Source: Acrocarpospora macrocephala
GTDB lineage: Bacteria; Actinomycetota; Actinomycetes; Streptosporangiales; Streptosporangiaceae
Assembly: GCF_009687865.1 (NCBI RefSeq)
Contig: NZ_BLAE01000085.1
Location: 1 to 49,456, forward strand
Reading direction: 5' to 3'
Length of the DNA: 49,456 nucleotides
Under the pieces are notes generated by a model. It was not told the DNA's origin and ran no database searches. It saw only the letters and a list, made by a program, of their open reading frames with translations. The translations under genes were made by a program, and so were the position numbers. This document shows, piece after piece, positions 23,082 to 48,557 of this stretch (positions are counted from its first letter, which is position 1; each line of letters begins with the position of its first letter).

Positions 23082-26000
23082 TCAGAACTCCTCGTCGGCG
23101 ACGAGACGGCGGACCGCGCCGAGGTGGGAGTCGAGTTCTCCGGGTTCGAAGCGGCACATGGCGATGGCGTACCAGAATTCGCCGTGGACGTCGCCTTCCT
23201 GCTTGTAGCGGCCGTCGGGGGCGAAGGCGGCCCAGCCGTCGGGGATGCCCAGGAGTGTGACCTTGCGGGTGGGTTCGGGGGTGCTGAGGTCCCACAGGAT
23301 GATCGTGCCGTCGTCGCCGGCTGAGGCCATCAGCGGCTCGGTGGGGGAGAACACGACGGAGAAGACGCGGCGCGCGTGGCCGGGCAGCGTGTGCAGGTGC
23401 TCGCCGGTGCGTACGTCCCACAACCGGATGACGAGGTCGTCGCCCGCGGTGGCCAGCATGGCGCCGTCGGGGGTGAAGGCGCCGGTCCACAGCCGCCCGG
23501 CGTGCCGTTCGAGCACATGCAGCTCGGCCCCGGTGGCGTGGTCCCAGATCCGGGCCCGGCCATCATTGCTGATGCTGGCCAGCACCGTGCCGGCGGGGTT
23601 GAAGACGACCTTGTAGACGCGGTCCTCATGGCCCCGCATGACGCGCAGGCACTCGCCCGTGGCCGCGTCCCAGACCCGGACCGCCCGGTCGTCGCAGCCC
23701 GTCGCGACGAGATGGCCGTCGGGACTGAAGTCGATGGACCGCACCCGGCCCCGGTGATCGGCCAGATTGACCATGAGCTTGTTGCTCGTCCGGTACCACA
23801 ACCGCACCGAGTCGTCGTCGTTCGCGGTGGCCAGGACCATGCCGTCCGGGCTGAACGCCTGCGCCCAGACGTAGTCGGTGTCGATGTCGAGCTCGCGCTC
23901 GAAGGGCCACCGGCCGCCGGTCTGCCACAGGTGCACGCCGCCGTCGTTGGTGGCGGTGGCGATGCGCTCGCCGTCGGGGCTGAAGACCGCCGAGGTCAGC
24001 TGGTCGCCGACGCCGGTGAGCTTCTCCAGCAGGCGGCCCGAATGCGGATCCCAGATGCGGACGATCCCATCGTTCCCGCTGCTGGCCAGCATGGAACCGT
24101 CAGGGCTGAAGTCGACCGAGCTGACCCGGCGGCCGTGCCCGCGCAGCGTCCGGGTGACCTGCCCGGTGCCCAGGTCCCACAGCCGGATCGAGTCGTCGTT
24201 CCCGGTCGTGGCGAGCTGGCTGCTGTCGGGGCGGATCGCGAACGGCCAGATCGAGCCCCGGTGCCCGGCCAGCCGCTTGCTCGGCCGCCCGGTTTCCGCG
24301 TCCCACAGCCGCAGCGAGCCGTTGCTGTCCGCGCTGATCAGCGTCTTGCCGTCGGGGGTGAACGACACCTGGTAGACGGCGCCGGTGTGCCCCGCGAGCT
24401 GCCGCGGGGTGTGCGGGGCGCGCAGATCCCAGATCCGCATGACACCTTCGGTGTCGCCGGTGGCCAGCAGATGGCCCGCCGGGTGGAAGTCGACGGCGTA
24501 CACGCGGCCCGGGTGGCCCTGGAGCTCGTGCCGGATCGCGCCCGTGGCGGTCTCGAAGACGCGGACCAGGCCGTACTGGTCGCCCGCCGCCAGCAGCACG
24601 CGGTCGGGGCTGAGCACGAGCCGGTAGACCGGCCCCGTGCCCTCCGACAGCACGCTGCGCACCTCGCCGGTGGTCAGATCCCAGACGCGTACCGTGGCCG
24701 AGGCGTCCCCGGTGATCAGGGTGTCGCCGCCGGGCCCGAACACCGCCGTGTAGACCGGCGCGGTGTGCCCGGGGAGCGAGCACAGCAGCTCGCCGGAATG
24801 GGCGTGCCAGACCCGGATGACGCCGTCGGCCGAGCCCGCGGCCAGCAGCGTGCCGCCCTCGTTGAACAGCAGCGGCCAGACCCCCTCGGGGTGCACCTTC
24901 AGGATGTGCGTGCACAGGCCGGTCGCGGTGTCCCAGATCCGCACGTTCCCATCCGCCGAGCCGGAGGCCAGCAGCATCTGCGAGCCGAACGCCAGCGCGT
25001 AGGCCCGGTCCCGGTGCCCGTGCAGGGTGCGCAGCGGCTGCCCGGAGGGCGCCTCGAAGATCTGCACGCCGCCGTCGTCACTGCCCACCGCGAAGATCTG
25101 CCCCTCCGGGTCGTACGCGATGGCGTTGGGCAGCCGGCTCGTCCCGGGATGGAACCCGTACGGCACCCCGACCGTGGCCGGGGCCAGCTGCGCCTCGATG
25201 GGGCTGCCCGGCACGATGGCGGCGTCCCGCAGCTCCGGCGCGCTCAGCAGCCGCTCGCCCGCCCGCACGTTGATGAGGATGGCACGCGACCACCTGCTCC
25301 CCGCGATGGTCGCGTCACGCAGGTCGGTGCGGGCCAGCCGGGTCCTGGACAGGTCCGCGCCGCGCAGGTCGGCCCCCGTCAGCCGGGCCTCGTCCAGCCA
25401 GGCGCCCGCCAGCTTGGTGCCGCGCAGCACCGCCCGCGACAGGTTCGCGCCGACCAGCCGCGCGTCGGTCAGGTCGGCGTCGGTCAGATCCACCTCCTGC
25501 AGGTCGCGGTGCGAGAGATCCTCGCCACGCAACCGCGCCCCCCGCAGGTTGGTCCGGGCGGGCGTACGCAACCGAGTGATGATCTTCAGCGCGTTCCGCC
25601 GCGAGACGTCCTCGGCCGCGGGGTCGGCCAGGACCTTGTCGGCCCAGCTCTGGCAGTGGCGCGCCTCGGCCAGGTCGCACAGGAAGTCGACCGTGAGCTG
25701 GGACAGCACCCGCCGCGACAGTGCCTTCGGCGTCTCGCCCCCCGCCGTGAACTCGTCGGCGATGTGGTGGGCGACGAGCCATTCGGCCACCGATCCGTGA
25801 ATGAACCCGAAAAGACCCTCGCTGGTCCTGACCAGCAGGCTGGCGGTGCCCACCGTGTGCGCCGCCTGCTCGCCCGACATCCGCCCGTCGGCCAGCCCCG
25901 ACAGGGTGTCGGCCACCTCGGCCAGCTCGGCCAGGCGCAGGAACGGCTCGTTGGTCTCCCACAGCCGCATGGCCAGCGTGTGAACCGCCGCCCACAGGTC

Positions 26001-28772
26001 GGCCACCTCGAGCCCCGCCTGCACACCCGGCAGGTTCCCCAGGCGCACCTGCTCGAACTGCAGCCAGGAGTCGAGGATCTCCTGGTAGAGGACGGCCGCG
26101 CTGACCGTGTGGCGGGCGTCTGCGACGGTGCGCAGCCGATCCTCGGCCAGCTGGGCGATGAAACTGAGCATCCGGGGATTGCGGGCCAGCCCGCTCAGGT
26201 CCTCGATGCCGTCCAGCAGCCGCAGCCGCTCCTCCGCGCGCTTCCGATCGCCGTACGCGTTGACCAGGTAGGCCAGGATCTGCTCATTGGAGAAACCCTC
26301 GACACTGAGGACCCGCCGCTGCGGCAGCACCCCCACCATCCCGCCGAGATTGGTGAACACCTGCTGGTCGGACTTGAAATGCTGGGTACGGCTCGCCACG
26401 ACGATCTTCGCCCGATCCTGCGCCGCCTGGAGCAGCGTTTCCAGATGATCGGCGGCCCGGTCATAGGTCACGCGGGTGACCAGCTCATCAAAACCATCGA
26501 AGAACAGCACGATCCGCCCCTGCCGGAGCATGTACTGGAACGCCTTCAGGTCGATGTGCTCCTCGCCGTGATTGGCCAGGTGCGCCGCGATGAGCCCCTC
26601 CACCGAGTGCGCCTTGTCCAGGGTGCGCAGGTCGATGAGGATCGGGATGATCTGCGCGGTGTCGGCGGTCATCCGGCGCACCACCTCGCGCAGCACGAAC
26701 GTCTTGCCCCGGCCGAAGTCGCCCAGCAGCAGGATGAACCGGCCGTGCTCGCCGCCGAGCAGCGAGATCAGCTCACCGGCCAGGTCATGGCGTACCCCGC
26801 TCTCCGGCCGGTCGAGCTCCCGGAAGTCCTGCGGCACGTAGAGGTGCGCGGGATAGGCCGGATCGTCGTTGAGCCGGTTGGTCTGCCGGATCGCGTACTC
26901 CGACAGGTCGACCAGCCCCTGGAACTCCACCAGGCTGCGCAGCCGGACGCCCCGCCGCGCCGCCTCGTCGCGCAGCGCGGACGGCGGGGCGGCGCCCAGA
27001 TAGACCAGCTCCGCGCTCTGCTCCATGCTGCCCGCGTGCACCTGCCGGGCGAACGCGTCCACGTCGGCGGCGGTGGGCTCGCCCACCACCGCGCCCACCC
27101 AGAACTGCCGGACGAAGTCCTCCTCGCGATAGGTCACCCGCAGGCGCGGCGGGTCGGACTCGACCGTCCTGATCACGGTCCGCTCGAACCGCGACTCGCA
27201 CGCCTCCGCGATCCGCTCCAGCAGGTCCGCGCGCGGGTCGGGCGCCGCGATCGGAAGCGGTTCCGCCACCTCCATCATCCCGTTGTCGGCCGGGCCGCTC
27301 ACCGCCGGGTAGACGCCGCTGACCGACGACCAGCTCCGCTCCACCCGCCGGGCCTCGGCGCCGATCCGGTGCACGCCGACCCCGCCGGGGGTGAACTCCA
27401 GCACCTGGTGCCGCCCGGGCGCCAGGCCGGGCAGGCACAGCGCCCCGGAACCGAGCTCGACCGGCTCGCCGCCGCCGCTGCCCTGCAGGACCGCGTGCAG
27501 CTTCCCGCCGAGCAGGGCCTCCACGCTCGCCCGGTCGGTGAGCGAGTCGCTCTGCCCGGCCCGCAGGTTGTGGTAGAGGGCGCCGATCCGCAGCCAGCCC
27601 TCCCGTTCGAACGGGCGCAGCCGCTCCGCGAACCAGGCGGCCTGCGACTCCCCGACCAGGCCGTGGTCGTCCTCCGGGCGGTGGCTGAGGGCCATCGTCG
27701 AGTTGAGCCCGGCCACCACCACCTTGATCTCCGGAATCGCGAACAGCGTCCACGGCTGCGCGCTGTCGAACATGATCGAGTCCAGGCCCTGGTAGAGCTC
27801 CTCGAACAGCGACGCGAAGTGCCGCCACTTCGGCCAGTACGGCGGCTCGGGATGCTCGTCGTCGGCCCGGCAGTGGTGGAAGTACGCCTCGCAGGCCGCG
27901 ATGTTCACATCCTTGGCCCCCGGCACCACGATCATCCGCTGCGGTTCGAGACCCACGAGCGCCCGCAGCCCGGTGAGGAAGTCCATCGCCATGGCCGACT
28001 GCTTGCGGCTGCCCGTCGCGGTCAGGTCGCCGGTGACCACCAGCAGCTCGGGCCGGGGCACCCCGCCGTCGGTCAGCTGGATCAGCTCGGCGAAGACGCG
28101 GGCCTGCAGCGCCTCGGGGCTGAGCGGCGCCTCGTGGCCCAGCGTCCGGCCGAACCTCGGCCCGGCCAGGTGCAGGACGCTCACGCTGCCGCGCTGGCCC
28201 TGGGCGTGGAAGCCGGCGGGAAAGGTGGGCGGGACCACCGGCGCCCGGCGCGCCCGGCCCTGGCCGGTCAGCACCCGCGGCTGCGGGAAGGCGAGCGGGG
28301 ACGGGGTCCGCGCGGCGGCCTCGGACGGGAAGTTCGGCCCGGCCACCGGCTTGGCCCGGCCGGTGAGCGCCTCCCTGATGCGGGTCAGCAGCAGCCCTCT
28401 GGCATGGTCGGGATCGGTCACCCCCAGCAGATCGACCCAGGTGATCGTGGACAGCAGCCCGTCGACCTGGCAATCCTCCAGCCGTACCGTGATGAGTTTC
28501 TTCCCCGGGTTATCCGGATTCGCGCGAAGTGCCGCCTGCCATTCCAATCGACCGAATCGCGACCCCATATAATTCTCGGTGAGCAACGCCAGCACGATGG
28601 CCGACTCCTTGACCCCCCGGTCCATGAAGTCGACAAAGTTGGTGCCCGGCACGAAGTCCCAGGCCTGCAGCATTGTGCGATATCCTGCAGCCTCAAGTTC
28701 CCAGGCCAGCCACGTCGCCCACCGTTCATCGGCGGGGGAGTAGCTGATGAATATGTCGGTGGGGCGCTCCAT
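23082..28772 (-). CDS. TIR - degenerate phosphoesterase - NACHT - pentapeptide - WD40 STAND protein
   Basis: A giant 1896-residue NLR-like protein. In order: a TIR domain (1-145; DIFISYSPADERWATWLAWE, with Glu77 in RFGRLEW at the NADase Glu position); a calcineurin-like region (about 195-475) with LHLAGPRFG, VVTGDLT and VVPGAKDVN, where active enzymes have D-x-H and G-N-H-D, so metal ligands are missing; an REase-like segment (about 515-625); a NACHT NTPase (Walker A GDFGRGKT at 684-691, Walker B IVLFFDGFDEL at 754-764); helical repeats; pentapeptide repeats (about 1075-1170); and 15 WD40 blades (about 1210-1840) with a conserved C-terminal GEFWYAIAMCRFEPGELD block. Such proteins sense foreign signals through the propeller and oligomerise; TIR then depletes NAD. 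The ATG at 28772 is used; GGAG-like bases lie upstream. Confidence 0.92.
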   Translation of the reverse strand: MERPTDIFISYSPADERWATWLAWELEAAGYRTMLQAWDFVPGTNFVDFMDRGVKESAIVLALLTENYMGSRFGRLEWQAALRANPDNPGKKLITVRLEDCQVDGLLSTITWVDLLGVTDPDHARGLLLTRIREALTGRAKPVAGPNFPSEAAARTPSPLAFPQPRVLTGQGRARRAPVVPPTFPAGFHAQGQRGSVSVLHLAGPRFGRTLGHEAPLSPEALQARVFAELIQLTDGGVPRPELLVVTGDLTATGSRKQSAMAMDFLTGLRALVGLEPQRMIVVPGAKDVNIAACEAYFHHCRADDEHPEPPYWPKWRHFASLFEELYQGLDSIMFDSAQPWTLFAIPEIKVVVAGLNSTMALSHRPEDDHGLVGESQAAWFAERLRPFEREGWLRIGALYHNLRAGQSDSLTDRASVEALLGGKLHAVLQGSGGGEPVELGSGALCLPGLAPGRHQVLEFTPGGVGVHRIGAEARRVERSWSSVSGVYPAVSGPADNGMMEVAEPLPIAAPDPRADLLERIAEACESRFERTVIRTVESDPPRLRVTYREEDFVRQFWVGAVVGEPTAADVDAFARQVHAGSMEQSAELVYLGAAPPSALRDEAARRGVRLRSLVEFQGLVDLSEYAIRQTNRLNDDPAYPAHLYVPQDFRELDRPESGVRHDLAGELISLLGGEHGRFILLLGDFGRGKTFVLREVVRRMTADTAQIIPILIDLRTLDKAHSVEGLIAAHLANHGEEHIDLKAFQYMLRQGRIVLFFDGFDELVTRVTYDRAADHLETLLQAAQDRAKIVVASRTQHFKSDQQVFTNLGGMVGVLPQRRVLSVEGFSNEQILAYLVNAYGDRKRAEERLRLLDGIEDLSGLARNPRMLSFIAQLAEDRLRTVADARHTVSAAVLYQEILDSWLQFEQVRLGNLPGVQAGLEVADLWAAVHTLAMRLWETNEPFLRLAELAEVADTLSGLADGRMSGEQAAHTVGTASLLVRTSEGLFGFIHGSVAEWLVAHHIADEFTAGGETPKALSRRVLSQLTVDFLCDLAEARHCQSWADKVLADPAAEDVSRRNALKIITRLRTPARTNLRGARLRGEDLSHRDLQEVDLTDADLTDARLVGANLSRAVLRGTKLAGAWLDEARLTGADLRGADLSRTRLARTDLRDATIAGSRWSRAILINVRAGERLLSAPELRDAAIVPGSPIEAQLAPATVGVPYGFHPGTSRLPNAIAYDPEGQIFAVGSDDGGVQIFEAPSGQPLRTLHGHRDRAYALAFGSQMLLASGSADGNVRIWDTATGLCTHILKVHPEGVWPLLFNEGGTLLAAGSADGVIRVWHAHSGELLCSLPGHTAPVYTAVFGPGGDTLITGDASATVRVWDLTTGEVRSVLSEGTGPVYRLVLSPDRVLLAAGDQYGLVRVFETATGAIRHELQGHPGRVYAVDFHPAGHLLATGDTEGVMRIWDLRAPHTPRQLAGHTGAVYQVSFTPDGKTLISADSNGSLRLWDAETGRPSKRLAGHRGSIWPFAIRPDSSQLATTGNDDSIRLWDLGTGQVTRTLRGHGRRVSSVDFSPDGSMLASSGNDGIVRIWDPHSGRLLEKLTGVGDQLTSAVFSPDGERIATATNDGGVHLWQTGGRWPFERELDIDTDYVWAQAFSPDGMVLATANDDDSVRLWYRTSNKLMVNLADHRGRVRSIDFSPDGHLVATGCDDRAVRVWDAATGECLRVMRGHEDRVYKVVFNPAGTVLASISNDGRARIWDHATGAELHVLERHAGRLWTGAFTPDGAMLATAGDDLVIRLWDVRTGEHLHTLPGHARRVFSVVFSPTEPLMASAGDDGTIILWDLSTPEPTRKVTLLGIPDGWAAFAPDGRYKQEGDVHGEFWYAIAMCRFEPGELDSHLGAVRRLVADEEF

Positions 28773-28811
28773 GACGTCAGTATCGCTGAGCCACTCCGGA
28801 TCGGTACCCTG

Positions 28812-30041
28812 ATGTTCTCATTGGTACGAGATATGGGACAACGGTCTGTGCCTCTCTGGAAGCGGGCCGTAGCCGCCTTGACCCCTCTCGACTGGGTTCG
28901 CATCGCGTTACTGGCAATCGGAATCGGGTGCGTGGTCACCGGCCTGCTACCGGCTGACGAGGCCTTTTCGAGTTTTCAGCGAATAGCCCCGCTGATGCTT
29001 TTCCTGGCGGCCGTCATCGTGCTCGCCGAATTGACGAAGCAAGCCCAGGTGTTCGACGTCATCGCGACCCGGCTGGCGCTGCTGGGCCGCGGCTCCTATC
29101 CGATGCTTTTCCTGCTCTGCGTGGCGTTCGCGTCCTGCACCACCATGTTCCTGAACCTGGACACCACCGCCGTGCTGCTCACTCCGGTGATGCTCGCGCT
29201 CGCGCCGCGCGCGCGGATAGCGCCGCTGCCGCTGGCGATGACGACGGTCTGGCTGGCCAACACCGCCAGCCTGCTGCTGCCGGTGAGCAACCTGACGAAC
29301 CTGCTCGCGCTGGACAAGGTGGGCCTTTCCGCGCCGCAGTTCGCCGCCCGGATGTGGCTGCCCCAGCTGGTCTCGATCGCCGTCACGATGGTGCTGCTCT
29401 GGGTGTTCTTCTGGCGCGCGGGCGCGCGCGGCGCGGACCGCTACGAACCGGCCGCCCCCGAGCCGATCGGCGACCGGGTGCTGTTCTGGGTCACCGCCGG
29501 GGCCTGCCTGATGTTCATCGCCGCCATTCTGGGCGGCCTCCAGATAGAGATCGCGGCGCTCGCCGCCGCGGCGCTGGCCATCGTGGCCTACCTGGTGCGG
29601 GATCGCGGGTCGCTGCGGCCCTCGCTGATCCCCTGGCAGCTGCTCGTCTTCGTCACCGGCCTGTTCCTGGTGGTGCCGACCCTGATGCGGCACGGCCTGG
29701 CCGACGTGATGACCTCCATCATCGGCGCCGACCACGGGTTCGCCGGGCTGCTGCGCGCGGGCGGCGCCGGCGCGGGCCTGTCCAACGTGGTCAACAACCT
29801 GCCGGCGTATGTCGCGGGCGAGCAGGTCATCCCGGTGGACAATCACGACCAATTGCTGTCGCTCCTGGTGGGCACCAATGTGGGCCCGGTCATCACCCCG
29901 TGGGCCTCGCTGGCCACGCTGCTCTGGTTCGAGTCGTGCCAGCGCCACGCGGTGAAAGTCCCGCTCGTGAAATTCATGCTGACCGGCGCTCTCCTGGCGG
30001 TGTGTATCGTGCCGGCCGTGGTCGCGGTGGTGACTGTCTGA
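28812..30041 (+). CDS. ArsB/NhaD-type (ion transporter superfamily) permease
   Basis: A 409-residue polytopic membrane protein of the ion transporter superfamily, close to ArsB-like and NhaD-like permeases. Helices include WVRIALLAIGIGCVVTGLL, IAPLMLFLAAVIVLAELT, LLCVAFASCTTMFLNLDTTA, LANTASLLLPVSNLTNLLAL and GAGLSNVVNNLPAYVAG. The NLDTTAVLLTPV and NN-PA segments are the family's pore motifs. It may export arsenite or an ion; no ars genes are close. The ATG at 28812 gives a possibly leaderless product; ATG 28833 is equally likely. It diverges from the TIR-NACHT gene with 39 bases between. Confidence 0.8.
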   Translation: MFSLVRDMGQRSVPLWKRAVAALTPLDWVRIALLAIGIGCVVTGLLPADEAFSSFQRIAPLMLFLAAVIVLAELTKQAQVFDVIATRLALLGRGSYPMLFLLCVAFASCTTMFLNLDTTAVLLTPVMLALAPRARIAPLPLAMTTVWLANTASLLLPVSNLTNLLALDKVGLSAPQFAARMWLPQLVSIAVTMVLLWVFFWRAGARGADRYEPAAPEPIGDRVLFWVTAGACLMFIAAILGGLQIEIAALAAAALAIVAYLVRDRGSLRPSLIPWQLLVFVTGLFLVVPTLMRHGLADVMTSIIGADHGFAGLLRAGGAGAGLSNVVNNLPAYVAGEQVIPVDNHDQLLSLLVGTNVGPVITPWASLATLLWFESCQRHAVKVPLVKFMLTGALLAVCIVPAVVAVVTV

Positions 30042-32178: not shown

Positions 32179-33216
32179 TCATAGGTATGGGTCGGACGCC
32201 GCCAGCGCGCGCCGGGTCAGCTCGATGACCTCGGCGTCCCGGAACGAGTCGAGCGGGAGACCCAGCGTCTGGAAGAGATCGCGCACCTCGTCCAGGGCGG
32301 GCTCGTCGGCGAGCGGCACCCGCAGCACGCGGTCGATCGGAACGTGCCTGGCCTGGCTGAAGCTGATGTTGAGCTCGGTCTGGCACCAGGAGTAGTAGAG
32401 CTTGTCGTGCGCCGCGAGCAGGGCGGGCGCGGCGGGATCCTCGCGGGTGACGATCACGTGCGAGGCGGCCATGTCCCAGCGGCACGTCGAGATCGTCGAG
32501 GACAGGCCGACGGCGATGGTGAGGAAGTCGTTGTGCTTGCGGTACCAGCTGGCCGCCAGGATGGTCGCGTAGGACTCCAGGCGCGCCCGCTCTGCCGTCC
32601 ACGGGTCGCCCTTGCCGGTCGGAAGGGATCGGCGGAACCGGGCGTACGCCTCGCAGACGGTGGTGTTCTCCGGGTCGATGATCTCCAGCTGCACCCGGAG
32701 CGGGCGGCGGGCCGCCCGGGAGTTCTCCACGCACTCGCGCAGCGTCACCGCGCGGATGAACGTTCCCGTGCCGCCCTTGAAGATCCAGCTGTTGCTGTCC
32801 CGCCAGGCCGCCGCCAGCTCGGCCCGCACCTGCGACCCGGCGAGCAGCGACACCACGGACACCTGGTCCAGCGTGTGCCGCGTCTGCTCGAGCAACCCGG
32901 TCACCTCGTCGTGGCGCTCGGCCATCGTGGCGAGCGCGTCCCGGGAATCGGCCGCCAGCTGCCGGAGCTCGGCCGGCTGGGCCAGCATCCGGTTGCGGAT
33001 CAGCGTGGTCGCCACCAGCGCCAGCACGAGCAGCGTGCCGTTGCTGGTGACCGGATCCTTGAACCTATCCGGTATGCCCGGAATTGTGTCGACCAGGATG
33101 GCGATGATGGCGATGATGAGCGCAATGCCCGCGTCAGGCTCATTACGCAGCCAGGTCAGCCGTAACCGTTGCCACATGTTCCGCTCGGAACCGCCCCCGC
33201 CGTTCTCGATCGCCAT
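32179..33216 (-). CDS. Two-TM membrane protein A (paralogue of 33332-34294)
   Basis: A 345-residue protein of unknown family. After a short polar start (MAIENGGGGSERNMWQR) come two hydrophobic segments (ALIIAIIAILVDTI and TLLVLALVATTLI), a short coiled coil (about 75-110), and a soluble domain of about 230 residues. That domain contains SWIFKGGTGTFIRAVTLRECV, VQLEIIDPENTTVC and LESYATILAASWY. Protein B shares these blocks, so the domain is real. The ATG at 33216 has GAGAGAAG upstream. It heads a likely operon with the cupin and phosphatase and is divergent from B across 115 bases. A two-TM plus cytoplasmic domain layout fits membrane-targeted effector proteins, but this is inference. Confidence 0.75.
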   Translation of the reverse strand: MAIENGGGGSERNMWQRLRLTWLRNEPDAGIALIIAIIAILVDTIPGIPDRFKDPVTSNGTLLVLALVATTLIRNRMLAQPAELRQLAADSRDALATMAERHDEVTGLLEQTRHTLDQVSVVSLLAGSQVRAELAAAWRDSNSWIFKGGTGTFIRAVTLRECVENSRAARRPLRVQLEIIDPENTTVCEAYARFRRSLPTGKGDPWTAERARLESYATILAASWYRKHNDFLTIAVGLSSTISTCRWDMAASHVIVTREDPAAPALLAAHDKLYYSWCQTELNISFSQARHVPIDRVLRVPLADEPALDEVRDLFQTLGLPLDSFRDAEVIELTRRALAASDPYL

Positions 33217-33331
33217 GAAGCTTCTCTCGCATTCGTGAACGAGTTGAATTACCCCTACCCCATAACTAGTCTGTACGTCCAGGCACATGTCCGCCACCCT
33301 GGCAATTATCTCAATTGAGGTGAGGACCGAA
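33217..33331. promoter_or_regulatory. Divergent promoter region between paralogues A and B
   Basis: An AT-richer 115-base gap (around 33240-33320) lies between the two divergent starts. GGTGAGGA precedes the B start at 33332. No clear palindrome was found. Confidence 0.35.
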
Positions 33332-34294
33332 ATGAAGCGGCGGATTGTCTGGCTGGTTACGAACTCAGACGTCGCCCTCGCGTTGTCCGTCGCCATCGTG
33401 GTCGCCGTACTCGGGGTGGTCGGGCCGGATTCGGAGAAGGCGGGACCCGCCGAGAGCGCCACGCTGGCCACCCTCGCCGTCCTGGCGGTGATCCTCCTGC
33501 GCGACCGGGCCCGCAACGACCAGCGGGACCAGGACTGGCGGGAAGCCCTGGCGGAGACACAGCTCCGGCTCGACCGGCTGGCCGACGGAATCGACCGCAG
33601 CTCAGGGGTCTACTTCGTGATCGGCCTCGAGTTCGGCAAGGTCCTGGCCGCCGCCCGGCAGTCCACCGACCGGTGGCTGTTCAAGGGCGCGACCGGAACG
33701 TACGTGCGCGCGGTCACCCTGCCGGAGTGCGTCGACCACGCGCGGCTGTCGAGGCGGGCGCTCGTTTTCCGGCTGGAGATTCTCGATCCCACCGACCCGG
33801 AATTATGCGAACGGTACGTCCGCATGCACCAGCGACTCACCACCCGGGCGGACAGCCCGGAACACTCGTGGACGATGGACGAAACACGCCGCGAACTGTT
33901 CGCGACAATTCTGGCGGCCTGCTGGTACCAGCAGCGGTACGAAATGCTCGATATCGACATAGGCCTCTCGTCGAAACTTTCGATTCACCGGTACGAGTTG
34001 TCGTCCCGATGCCTGATCATCACGCAGCGTGGCCCGAGTTTTCCGGCCACGATCGTGGAGAGCGGGAACCTGAGCTACGACCTGTGGAACACCGAGCTGG
34101 CGGTCAGCCTCCGCCAGTCGAAGCTGCTCCCCATGAAGCAGATCCAGGACGTGCCGCTGAGCGCCTCGCCCAGCGCCGACGAGGTCCGCAGCGTGTTCTC
34201 CCTGCTGGGGGTCGCCCTTCCGGACACGTACACGGACGCCGACCTGGAGGAGATCTCGGAACTCGCCCTCGCGTCCGCCAACCCGTACGAATAG
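33332..34294 (+). CDS. Two-TM membrane protein B (paralogue of A)
   Basis: A 320-residue protein homologous to A throughout its soluble part. RWLFKGATGTYVRAVTLPECV, FRLEILDPTDPELC, LFATILAACWYQQ and GLSSKLS align with the same blocks in A. The N-terminus has two hydrophobic stretches (ALALSVAIVVAVLGVVG and SATLATLAVLAVILL) then a coiled coil (AETQLRLDRLADGI). Both proteins end in a similar acidic helix. ATG 33332 is used, with GAGG six bases upstream, rather than the ATG at 33287. The gene ends 34 bases before the convergent NTPase gene. The A/B pair looks like a duplicated and diverged two-component membrane module. Confidence 0.75.
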   Translation: MKRRIVWLVTNSDVALALSVAIVVAVLGVVGPDSEKAGPAESATLATLAVLAVILLRDRARNDQRDQDWREALAETQLRLDRLADGIDRSSGVYFVIGLEFGKVLAAARQSTDRWLFKGATGTYVRAVTLPECVDHARLSRRALVFRLEILDPTDPELCERYVRMHQRLTTRADSPEHSWTMDETRRELFATILAACWYQQRYEMLDIDIGLSSKLSIHRYELSSRCLIITQRGPSFPATIVESGNLSYDLWNTELAVSLRQSKLLPMKQIQDVPLSASPSADEVRSVFSLLGVALPDTYTDADLEEISELALASANPYE

Positions 34295-46859: not shown

Positions 46860-48557
46860 ATGATAGGACACGCTGGCCCGATCAGCGGTATCTCTGCCTA
46901 TGGGGATGACTTTATCGCGACAGCGGGTTACGACAATCGGGTCATCCTGTGGAATCAGAAGACGGGCGAAGCGGTGTCCCGTGTCATCCACGATCACCTT
47001 GCCAACCAGTGCACTTTCAGTCCTGACGGGAGGCTGCTTGTATCATCGTCCAGCGATTACTCTGCTCGCCTCTGGTCGGTGCCAGACCTCCGGCTGATGG
47101 CAGTGCTAGGAGATCACGAAGACGACGTCGAAATGTCGGTCTTCCACCCGACGGAGCGTATGGTCGCGACCGCTTCGCGTGATTACCGGGTACGTGTATT
47201 CGATTACAACGGCGAGCTGCTCCATTGCTTTACCGGCCACACCGCGGACGTCATCAGCGTTCAGTGGAACCATGGCGGGGACCAGGTCATCAGCTCCAGC
47301 GACGACGGGACGATCAAGCGCTGGTCACTCGTGAGCGGCCTGTTGGTGCAGGACATCGACCTGGGCGGAGTCGAGACGGACACCATCGCGATCCACCCGA
47401 ATGGAGTGATCTACGCGGGAAACGACGACGGGCAGCTAATCGTGCTCGATGGAGAATCGGTCACGAAGGTGGACGCGCATGCGGCCGGCATCAAACGTCT
47501 CGCGATCGGCATCGAAAAGAACCTGTTGGTCAGCCTGAGCTATGACAGAACCATGCGTATCTGGGATATCAGTTCCGGTTTTCCACGTCCGAAAGTCTCG
47601 ACGAATCTTCCCGCGGAGGTCTGGCCCCGGTCCTGTGCCTTCGCCGGTGACTCGTCCATAGTCCTCGGCACATTCGGCTCGACGTATCAATCATACGACT
47701 ACCAGCAGGACAGGTGGATCGGCAGAGAAGTAGCGCCGACCTACGGCCTAAATGCCATATACGCCCATGAAAGCGGGCGAATCACCGTGGGTGATGCCGG
47801 TATAGTGTGGCGAGACAACCAAGAGCTGTCACGGCCAGGCAGTCTTTGCAACTTCTTCGCTCCCATCGCCGATCGGCTCATCACGGGTGGACAGCTGGGA
47901 ATAATCTTCGACGTGCTCACCGGACTGCCGATCCACCAGCACAGATCACCATTGAACTGTGGAGTCTCCTTCAAGAGAGACGATCTCGACCACGTAATCG
48001 TCGGCACTTACACCGGTGAAGGGCTTGTCTTCTGCAGATCGAACAACGGCATCGACTACGTGGCCGAACTAAAACTCCACGACAACGCGGTAAAAGGCGT
48101 CGCCTCGTCTGGTCGCTACATCTTCTCGGTCAGTGCGGACGGTAGCTGTACCTGGTTCGACAAGGACGATCTCACCCTGGTGAAGACGATCCACCGTGCC
48201 CACGACAAGATAGCGAACGGCTGTGTCGGCCTGGGCGGTGGAGAGTTCGCCAGCATCAGCCGGGACCTGAAGCTACGCATCTGGTCAGCCGACTTCACTG
48301 CGACCGTTATCGACACGCCCTACACGCACTCGATCAAGTGCATCGCGGCGAGCGCCGATGCTCGCTGGATCGCAACCGGAACCTACGACGGTCACATCGG
48401 CATCTTCGACCGCATCACGGGGACGTGGGCGGCGCTCACCCGCCCAACCGCGTCTGGCATCAGCTCGCTGGCGTATGACCCCCGGCACGATGTGTTCCTT
48501 GGCAGCTCGTATGACGGGCAGGCATACGAGTGTGCCGTCCCCGTCACCAGCGGGTAG
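46860..48557 (+). CDS. WD40-repeat protein (565 aa)
   Basis: A beta-propeller protein with at least ten WD-like blades: ISAYGDDFIATAGYDNRVILWN, CTFSPDGRLLVSSSSDYSARLWS, VFHPTERMVATASRDYRVRVFD, VISVQWNHGGDQVISSSDDGTIKRWS, LAIGIEKNLLVSLSYDRTMRIWD, then more diverged blades and ISRDLKLRIWS, ATGTYDGHIGIFD at the end. It lacks signal peptide, TM helix or fused catalytic domain, so it is a cytoplasmic scaffold or sensor. ATG 46860 has AGAAGGAGT upstream. GC is lower than in the left part of the window. It precedes an MFS transporter with a 283-base gap. I do not know its partner. Confidence 0.88.
   Translation: MIGHAGPISGISAYGDDFIATAGYDNRVILWNQKTGEAVSRVIHDHLANQCTFSPDGRLLVSSSSDYSARLWSVPDLRLMAVLGDHEDDVEMSVFHPTERMVATASRDYRVRVFDYNGELLHCFTGHTADVISVQWNHGGDQVISSSDDGTIKRWSLVSGLLVQDIDLGGVETDTIAIHPNGVIYAGNDDGQLIVLDGESVTKVDAHAAGIKRLAIGIEKNLLVSLSYDRTMRIWDISSGFPRPKVSTNLPAEVWPRSCAFAGDSSIVLGTFGSTYQSYDYQQDRWIGREVAPTYGLNAIYAHESGRITVGDAGIVWRDNQELSRPGSLCNFFAPIADRLITGGQLGIIFDVLTGLPIHQHRSPLNCGVSFKRDDLDHVIVGTYTGEGLVFCRSNNGIDYVAELKLHDNAVKGVASSGRYIFSVSADGSCTWFDKDDLTLVKTIHRAHDKIANGCVGLGGGEFASISRDLKLRIWSADFTATVIDTPYTHSIKCIAASADARWIATGTYDGHIGIFDRITGTWAALTRPTASGISSLAYDPRHDVFLGSSYDGQAYECAVPVTSG

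Follow-up and report, generated by a model that had tools for sequence, protein, structure and literature searches.

A gene on the minus strand of the window, the 49,456-nucleotide stretch of Acrocarpospora macrocephala DNA analysed here (contig NZ_BLAE01000085.1, assembly GCF_009687865.1), encodes what reads as a TIR-STAND receptor of the immune type; the general kind is known, and this protein appears unusual in keeping dead former effectors. We consider it probable, at roughly 60%, that it is a STAND switch encoded by a single gene, in which one weapon has taken the place of another through effector succession, with the TIR domain as the live effector. The gene (23082..28772) is real, a single ORF of 1,896 aa with an ATG start and a GC3 of 0.94. 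A 2,221-aa antisense frame (23376-30041) was rejected as a gene, its GC3 over the overlap being 0.72 versus 0.94; only its end is real and corresponds to the permease gene described below.

Pfam gives the domain order TIR_2, NA-iREase3, NACHT, pentapeptide repeats and WD40, all on the minus strand. The TIR domain covers residues 5-123 (28404..28760; TIR_2 match at residues 7-122, E 1e-34) and contains Glu77 within FGRLEW, with an aromatic residue at -4 (position 73). It is followed by a pseudo-phosphoesterase, the remnant of a calcineurin-like fold recognized by motif loss and DS9_1 homology (residues 195-475, 27348..28190), and by NA-iREase3, the NACHT-associated inactive REase (residues 512-625, 26898..27239), matched as a segment by PF22739 at residues 515-623 with E 6e-38. 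The NACHT ATPase and its C-terminal part occupy residues 679-1070 (25563..26738; PF05729, E 1e-11, 45 bits versus a cut-off of 26.7), with Walker A (GDFGRGKT) at 684-691 and Walker B (IVLFFDGFDEL) at 754-764. Pentapeptide repeats (PF00805, E 4e-35) fill residues 1071-1190 (25203..25562), and a WD40 propeller region of about 15 blades, defined by Pfam and the repeat pattern, extends over residues 1205-1833 (23274..25160). Pfam counts 14 WD40 stretches; a simple pattern picks out 12 blade strands and three more were found on reading at the same 42-residue spacing, which gives the 15 blades proposed in the sequence-only reading. The domain map of that reading was borne out by Pfam, except that the calcineurin-like region is below cut-off in Metallophos and was recovered by DS9_1 homology, and its residue numbers for Glu77 and both Walker motifs proved correct. 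The last 63 residues (1834-1896, 23085..23273) form a conserved C-terminal tail, with 61% mean identity between the window protein and 78 orthologues from the best 80 of 118 relatives, and no Pfam family matches it above cut-off. With a NACHT carrying Walker A and B, an N-terminal TIR and a C-terminal WD40 region, the protein has the layout of a STAND-type receptor, the roles of these parts being predicted ones. Animal Apaf-1 also has a STAND ATPase followed by a WD40 region of 15 repeats (7+8 blades); it carries a CARD instead of a TIR and an AP-ATPase, and the likeness is one of analogy only. PADLOC returned no full-length match to any system protein and partial matches to the TIR part only.

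A scan of named genomes yielded 118 relatives, the best 80 of which were taken as the orthologue set; they stem from Herbidospora, Actinomadura, Nonomuraea, Streptosporangium, Microbispora, Streptomyces and other genera. A frame covering the query was recovered in all 80, and this number of orthologues in named genomes indicates that the ORF is more than a chance frame. Three of them end before the TIR (L017, L073, L085) and two are incomplete at the far end (L034, L036). The Walker motifs are conserved across the set. Median dN/dS values from 38 disjoint orthologue pairs (37 for TIR and WD40) were 0.07 (0-0.28) for the TIR, which is the most conserved part, 0.20 (0.04-0.95) for the dead phosphoesterase, 0.22 (0.06-0.71) for NACHT, 0.25 (0-0.82) for the pentapeptide repeats, 0.29 (0.07-1.17) for the iREase and 0.29 (0.10-0.75) for WD40; the very high GC3 probably makes dS too low and the ratios too high, so that contrasts among domains are more reliable than the absolute values. 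The dead phosphoesterase is under constraint equal to that on NACHT, and purifying selection on it continues. Carriage on plasmids was considered and rejected: among 20 matching plasmid records one alone covers at least 80% of the query, and this 11.85-Mb Nonomuraea record is chromosome-like.

Glu77, the TIR motifs and the aromatic residue at -4 are present in every one of the 77 orthologues (of the best 80) that possess the N-terminus. The glutamate at the catalytic position is also invariant in the 30 TIRs of a hand-chosen set (A2), and in a wider sample 56 of 62 TIRs have Glu at position 77: 41/43 over a dead phosphoesterase (missing in two), 3/3 over an intact one and 12/16 without phosphoesterase (missing in four). 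When the TIR profile was compared with solved chains, TLRs scored best, followed by MyD88 and others; AbTIR (8g83), Cat1 (9mud) and TIR-APAZ, which are TIR NADases of defence systems, were matched as well. Unlike in those proteins, the TIR of the window protein shares its chain with a STAND switch. TLRs are not known to be NADases, and since the solved TLR chains also align a Glu at position 77, Glu77 is support for NADase activity and not proof of it. The best reading of these data is that the TIR is the live effector of the STAND protein, and the earlier proposal of a TIR-bearing STAND sensor-effector with its catalytic-position Glu kept is supported to that extent. The same genome (G000) holds four further TIR_2 matches on contigs C18, C11 and C73.

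The calcineurin-like region reaches 12.3 bits on Pfam Metallophos, below the cut-off of 21.5 (E 0.24); against DS9_1, the NCBIfam phosphoesterase model with a curated cut-off of 420, it scores 61 bits. In four relatives whose motifs are intact, the scores are 49-57 bits on Metallophos and 102-110 bits on DS9_1, and the family profile matches 2xmo, the LMO2642 protein, with E 0.0024. On the basis of the DS9_1 score, the 2xmo match and the Metallophos scores of the intact relatives we regard the region as homologous despite its own Pfam score. Three of its five metal-site motifs are lost: GPR replaces DxH in motif I, GAKD replaces GNHD, and GHxH is absent, with GD and His401 retained. Among the best 80 orthologues, DxH or DxQ in motif I occurs in none, GNHD in none and GHxH at its place in none (the string lies elsewhere in the domain in three); GD is found in 63, and His401, the lone His of motif IV, in all 80. 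With these losses and curated scores not reached, the region does not qualify as an active calcineurin-like phosphoesterase of the DS-8/DS-9 kind, and we rejected it as an active second effector on the grounds that the catalytic motifs are gone across the orthologues. The block 311-319 is nevertheless invariant among 39 sequences. In NA-iREase3 the invariant columns of the 39 sequences contain no D...(D/E)xK, and the Pfam family itself is named inactive. Judged by their residues, both domains look like dead enzymes. The calcineurin-like and REase-like regions of the sequence-only reading are present, and it is as active layers that they fail, their catalytic motifs being absent from the orthologues.

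The search for NA-iREase3 gave hits in 37 of the 394 genomes sampled from the class and in 86 of 250 genomes of the window's family; in family f85 it occurs in 24 of 35 genomes, in f7 in 26 of 200, and in the window's own genus in one of five. For a survey of architectures we sampled 100 loci, covering 46 of 48 hits in f85, 29 of 36 in f7, 3 of 3 in f3 and 28 of 90 in the window's family; outliers were preferred, so the proportions that follow are not prevalences. The loci contain 106 Pfam hits, and narrower profiles recovered 100 iREase ORFs (59 + 41), missing six hits (L205, two in L236, L239 and two in L238). A phosphoesterase is present in 77 of the 100 ORFs. Among the 23 without it, which include the short frames L189, L197, L198, L204 and L253, 16 have a TIR directly on the iREase and seven are unclear, other or fragments. 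The front of the protein is readable in 71 of the 77; three are cut (L172, L192, L214) and three unclear (L170, where a TIR stands just ahead of an assembly gap, L221 and L234). We scored a phosphoesterase as intact when D.[QHRT] in motif I, GD, GNHD and GHxH occurred jointly, and assigned front modules by the TIR profile and simple sequence patterns. Among the 71 readable ORFs, intact and dead phosphoesterases number 6 and 4 with nothing in front (the dead ones being L222, L227, L231 and L232), 3 and 43 behind a TIR, 4 and 5 behind a trypsin-like domain, 0 and 3 behind an HTH, 0 and 2 behind a module labelled SAV2336-like, and 0 and 1 behind another TIR. L177, which has 71 low-complexity residues before the domain, was assigned by hand to those with nothing in front. 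An intact phosphoesterase without TIR thereby occurs in 10 of the 100 ORFs of this non-random sample (six bare, four trypsin-like). Leaving out six of the 13, motif I of the intact relatives is mostly DxQ rather than DxH, which is why they are possibly non-canonical enzymes. Pfam confirmed the fronts in several examples (Trypsin_2 in L223 and L210, HTH_3 in L225, TIR_2 in L171 and L187, NNH7-NACHT in L215); for the fronts provisionally labelled SAV2336-like, Pfam gave no match. A phosphoesterase-NACHT-WD40 backbone lacking the TIR does exist, as the sequence-only reading had it; calling it common in actinomycetes overstates the case for the iREase-bearing form, given the 37 positive genomes in the class sample.

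Individual loci deserve mention. By pattern, a trypsin-like domain precedes phosphoesterase-iREase-NACHT at L209, L210, L223, L224, L226, L233, L235, L238 and L246, and four of this group carry an intact phosphoesterase. L215 has an NNH7-NACHT module ahead of iREase-NACHT in one 2,367-aa frame with two NACHT units. At L227, a frame with hydrophobic stretches lies between the permease and the TIR-less, dead-phosphoesterase protein and is possibly a separate effector.

A tree of 95 NACHT regions was built by a quick method; 44 of its 92 inner branches were starred and the root was not inferred. The window protein falls into a starred set of 39 rows in which every phosphoesterase is dead or absent and the fronts are 32 TIRs, three HTHs (L224b, L225, L243), NNH7-NACHT (L215), nothing (L227) and two that are cut. 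The clearest series of intermediates is a separate starred set (100) of seven rows, in which L177 begins with an intact phosphoesterase, L182, L187 and L188 have a TIR and an intact phosphoesterase, and L199, L202 and L203 have a TIR and a decayed one. Thirteen rows in which the TIR adjoins the iREase directly fall together in a single starred set, and the TIR tree returned largely matching sets with long-branch warnings. The association between a front module and a dead phosphoesterase has a Fisher p of 0.0017; kinship leaves four independent pairs, with low power and no significance, so that the link between front module and phosphoesterase decay is suggestive. A strict rule that the phosphoesterase is intact only when no front module is present was rejected because of seven exceptions. 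Since lost catalytic residues are seldom regained, we take the intact forms as the start of the series and the dead ones as its end; on an unrooted tree, this direction of succession would be the expected one, and where a relative begins with an intact phosphoesterase, that domain would be its effector. The sequence-only reading had taken the TIR for an added effector. This was not upheld for a recent addition: the TIR is fixed in the 77 nearest orthologues with an N-terminus and present in 32 of the 39 tree rows, and with the TIR the most conserved part and the dead phosphoesterase also under selection, it is no late add-on.

A CitMHS/ArsB-like permease gene (28812..30041, plus strand; CitMHS E 3e-39) stands head to head with the TIR-STAND gene across a gap of 39 bases between the two start codons as placed (28773..28811). 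All 77 of the nearest loci that have upstream DNA show the same arrangement, three of the best 80 lacking such DNA. Of the 37 rows in the 39-row set that have upstream DNA, 26 carry the permease and 11 lack it, namely L174, L176, L178, L183 and L186 of f85, the HTH-fronted L224b, L225 and L243, and L215, L229 and L247. Outside this set it occurs at L221, L222 and the fragment L253; the other fetched loci have no permease within the 0-13 kb available. The 250 family genomes comprise 80 with both iREase and permease, six with the iREase only, 19 with the permease only and 145 with neither (permease E 1e-60). A divergent permease lies within 4 kb of 77 of the 90 iREase hits in these genomes, the other 13 being nine other architectures, three permease-free contigs (fragments or small) and one true exception, G566 (L247). 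We examined 18 of the 19 permease-only sites. Sixteen have no piece of the gene, although one of these, L277, has only 1.7 kb beyond the permease; L269 has a broken relic, and L279 has a TIR and phosphoesterase pieces at the contig end. The permease thus outlives the TIR-STAND gene, and its obligate dependence on the TIR gene was ruled out. At L269 (4221-5379) a broken remnant beside the permease retains phosphoesterase pieces, the NACHT end, pentapeptide, WD40 and the tail, and by all appearances is a decaying copy of the TIR-STAND gene.

The other four genomes of the window's genus have neither gene nor permease, and two genomes of genus g295 have a second permease 80% identical to that of the window, in G716 next to a second TIR gene. 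Taken together, this similarity and the lack of both genes elsewhere in the window's genus suggest movement of the pair from one genus to another. In the intergenic stretch, GATACT lies upstream of the TIR start at 12 of 23 aligned loci (28773-28811 and 22 related) and (A/G)ATACT at 16 of 23, with GATACC in two Herbidospora; in the window GATACT ends 6 bases ahead of the ATG, a position that may reflect a leaderless transcript. Elsewhere in the window, the opposite and overlapping frames 32179-33516 (minus strand) and 33287-34294 (plus strand) match the same places in relatives and for that reason look like paralogues; neither matches NCBIfam. A second, smaller WD40 protein of 565 aa is encoded at 46860-48557.

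Among tested systems the closest is DS-8, a metallophosphatase-NACHT anti-phage protein; its defence depends on residues of both the phosphatase and the ATPase, according to the DefensePredictor paper (PMC13092281). Like the window protein, DS-8 has a calcineurin-like domain and a NACHT in one chain, although the DS8 model matches the window NACHT part only weakly (27 bits; curated cut-off 790), and with DS-9A the link is the DS9_1 match of the phosphoesterase given above. Unlike both, the window protein has a dead phosphoesterase, a TIR, an iREase and a WD40 sensor. The effector-switch-sensor layout and inactive enzymes in such systems are described in PMC12169576, PMC7159879 and PMC8195603. 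bNACHT proteins such as bNACHT25 share the order of effector, NACHT and C-terminal sensor; bNACHT25 has an active PD-(D/E)XK nuclease, whereas the window protein has a TIR in front and an inactive REase-like domain (PMC12169576). Among the literature matches listed, as titles and starts of abstracts, no TIR over a dead phosphoesterase on a NACHT was found.

We propose that the WD40 propellers would sense the trigger, probably phage, together with the pentapeptide repeats, and that NACHT would then bind and hydrolyse ATP and oligomerise. This would gather the N-terminal TIRs for cleavage of NAD+ or a NAD-derived molecule, which would stop or kill the cell. The phosphoesterase, its metal site lost, would be kept between TIR and switch as an adaptor or a regulatory layer, and NA-iREase3 may represent a similar layer of greater age. 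Against this mechanism counts the fact that the gene is mostly single-copy and syntenic across genera, unlike a typical defence island. A rival reading would be a housekeeping or developmental regulator that acts with the adjacent permease and has no part in defence: in addition to the divergent pairing at all 77 nearest loci, the permease occurs in 80 of 86 iREase-positive and 19 of 164 iREase-negative family genomes (Fisher p 4e-39, uncorrected for kinship), and 82 of the 86 positive genomes have a single iREase hit. We hold such a role to be unlikely, as the permease persists where the gene has left no piece, 11 of the tree rows with upstream DNA have the gene and no permease, and only one of the five genomes of the window's own genus has the gene at all.

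Two other readings concern single domains. The lost catalytic residues combined with the median dN/dS of 0.20 and the invariant block 311-319 could mean that the dead phosphoesterase triggers the TIR itself, either as an integrated decoy imitating a phosphoesterase attacked by phage or as a nucleotide-binding sensor, and inactive enzymes have been proposed as decoys in PMC7159879. A plain adaptor accounts for the same facts, nothing points directly to ligand binding, sensing usually falls to the WD40 region and natural TIR-iREase-NACHT forms manage without a phosphoesterase, all of which makes the decoy or sensor improbable. That the TIR is a non-enzymatic assembly domain recruiting another protein, in the manner of the animal TLR adaptors, would agree with its best profile scores being those of TLR chains; the invariance of Glu77 and the aromatic residue at -4, along with the matches of the same profile to AbTIR, Cat1 and TIR-APAZ, leaves us with strong doubts about it. 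We favour the STAND switch with the TIR as its live replacement effector. A tentative and rather speculative extension would have each new effector added in front and the old ones kept dead as a permanent part of the activation path, in the order iREase, phosphoesterase and TIR. In it, the phosphoesterase may have become a decoy or a sensor of nucleotides, and the permease may be a linked partner.

If such a layered receptor is real, living genomes would record the order in which its weapons were changed. The surviving intermediates join the tested anti-phage phosphatase-NACHT architecture to the TIR-STAND proteins, and effector replacement becomes testable on one NACHT-WD40 frame with a live phosphoesterase, with both effectors, with a TIR over a dead phosphoesterase or with the TIR alone. 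The family also shows that an inactive enzyme domain can persist under selection within a bacterial immune-type receptor.
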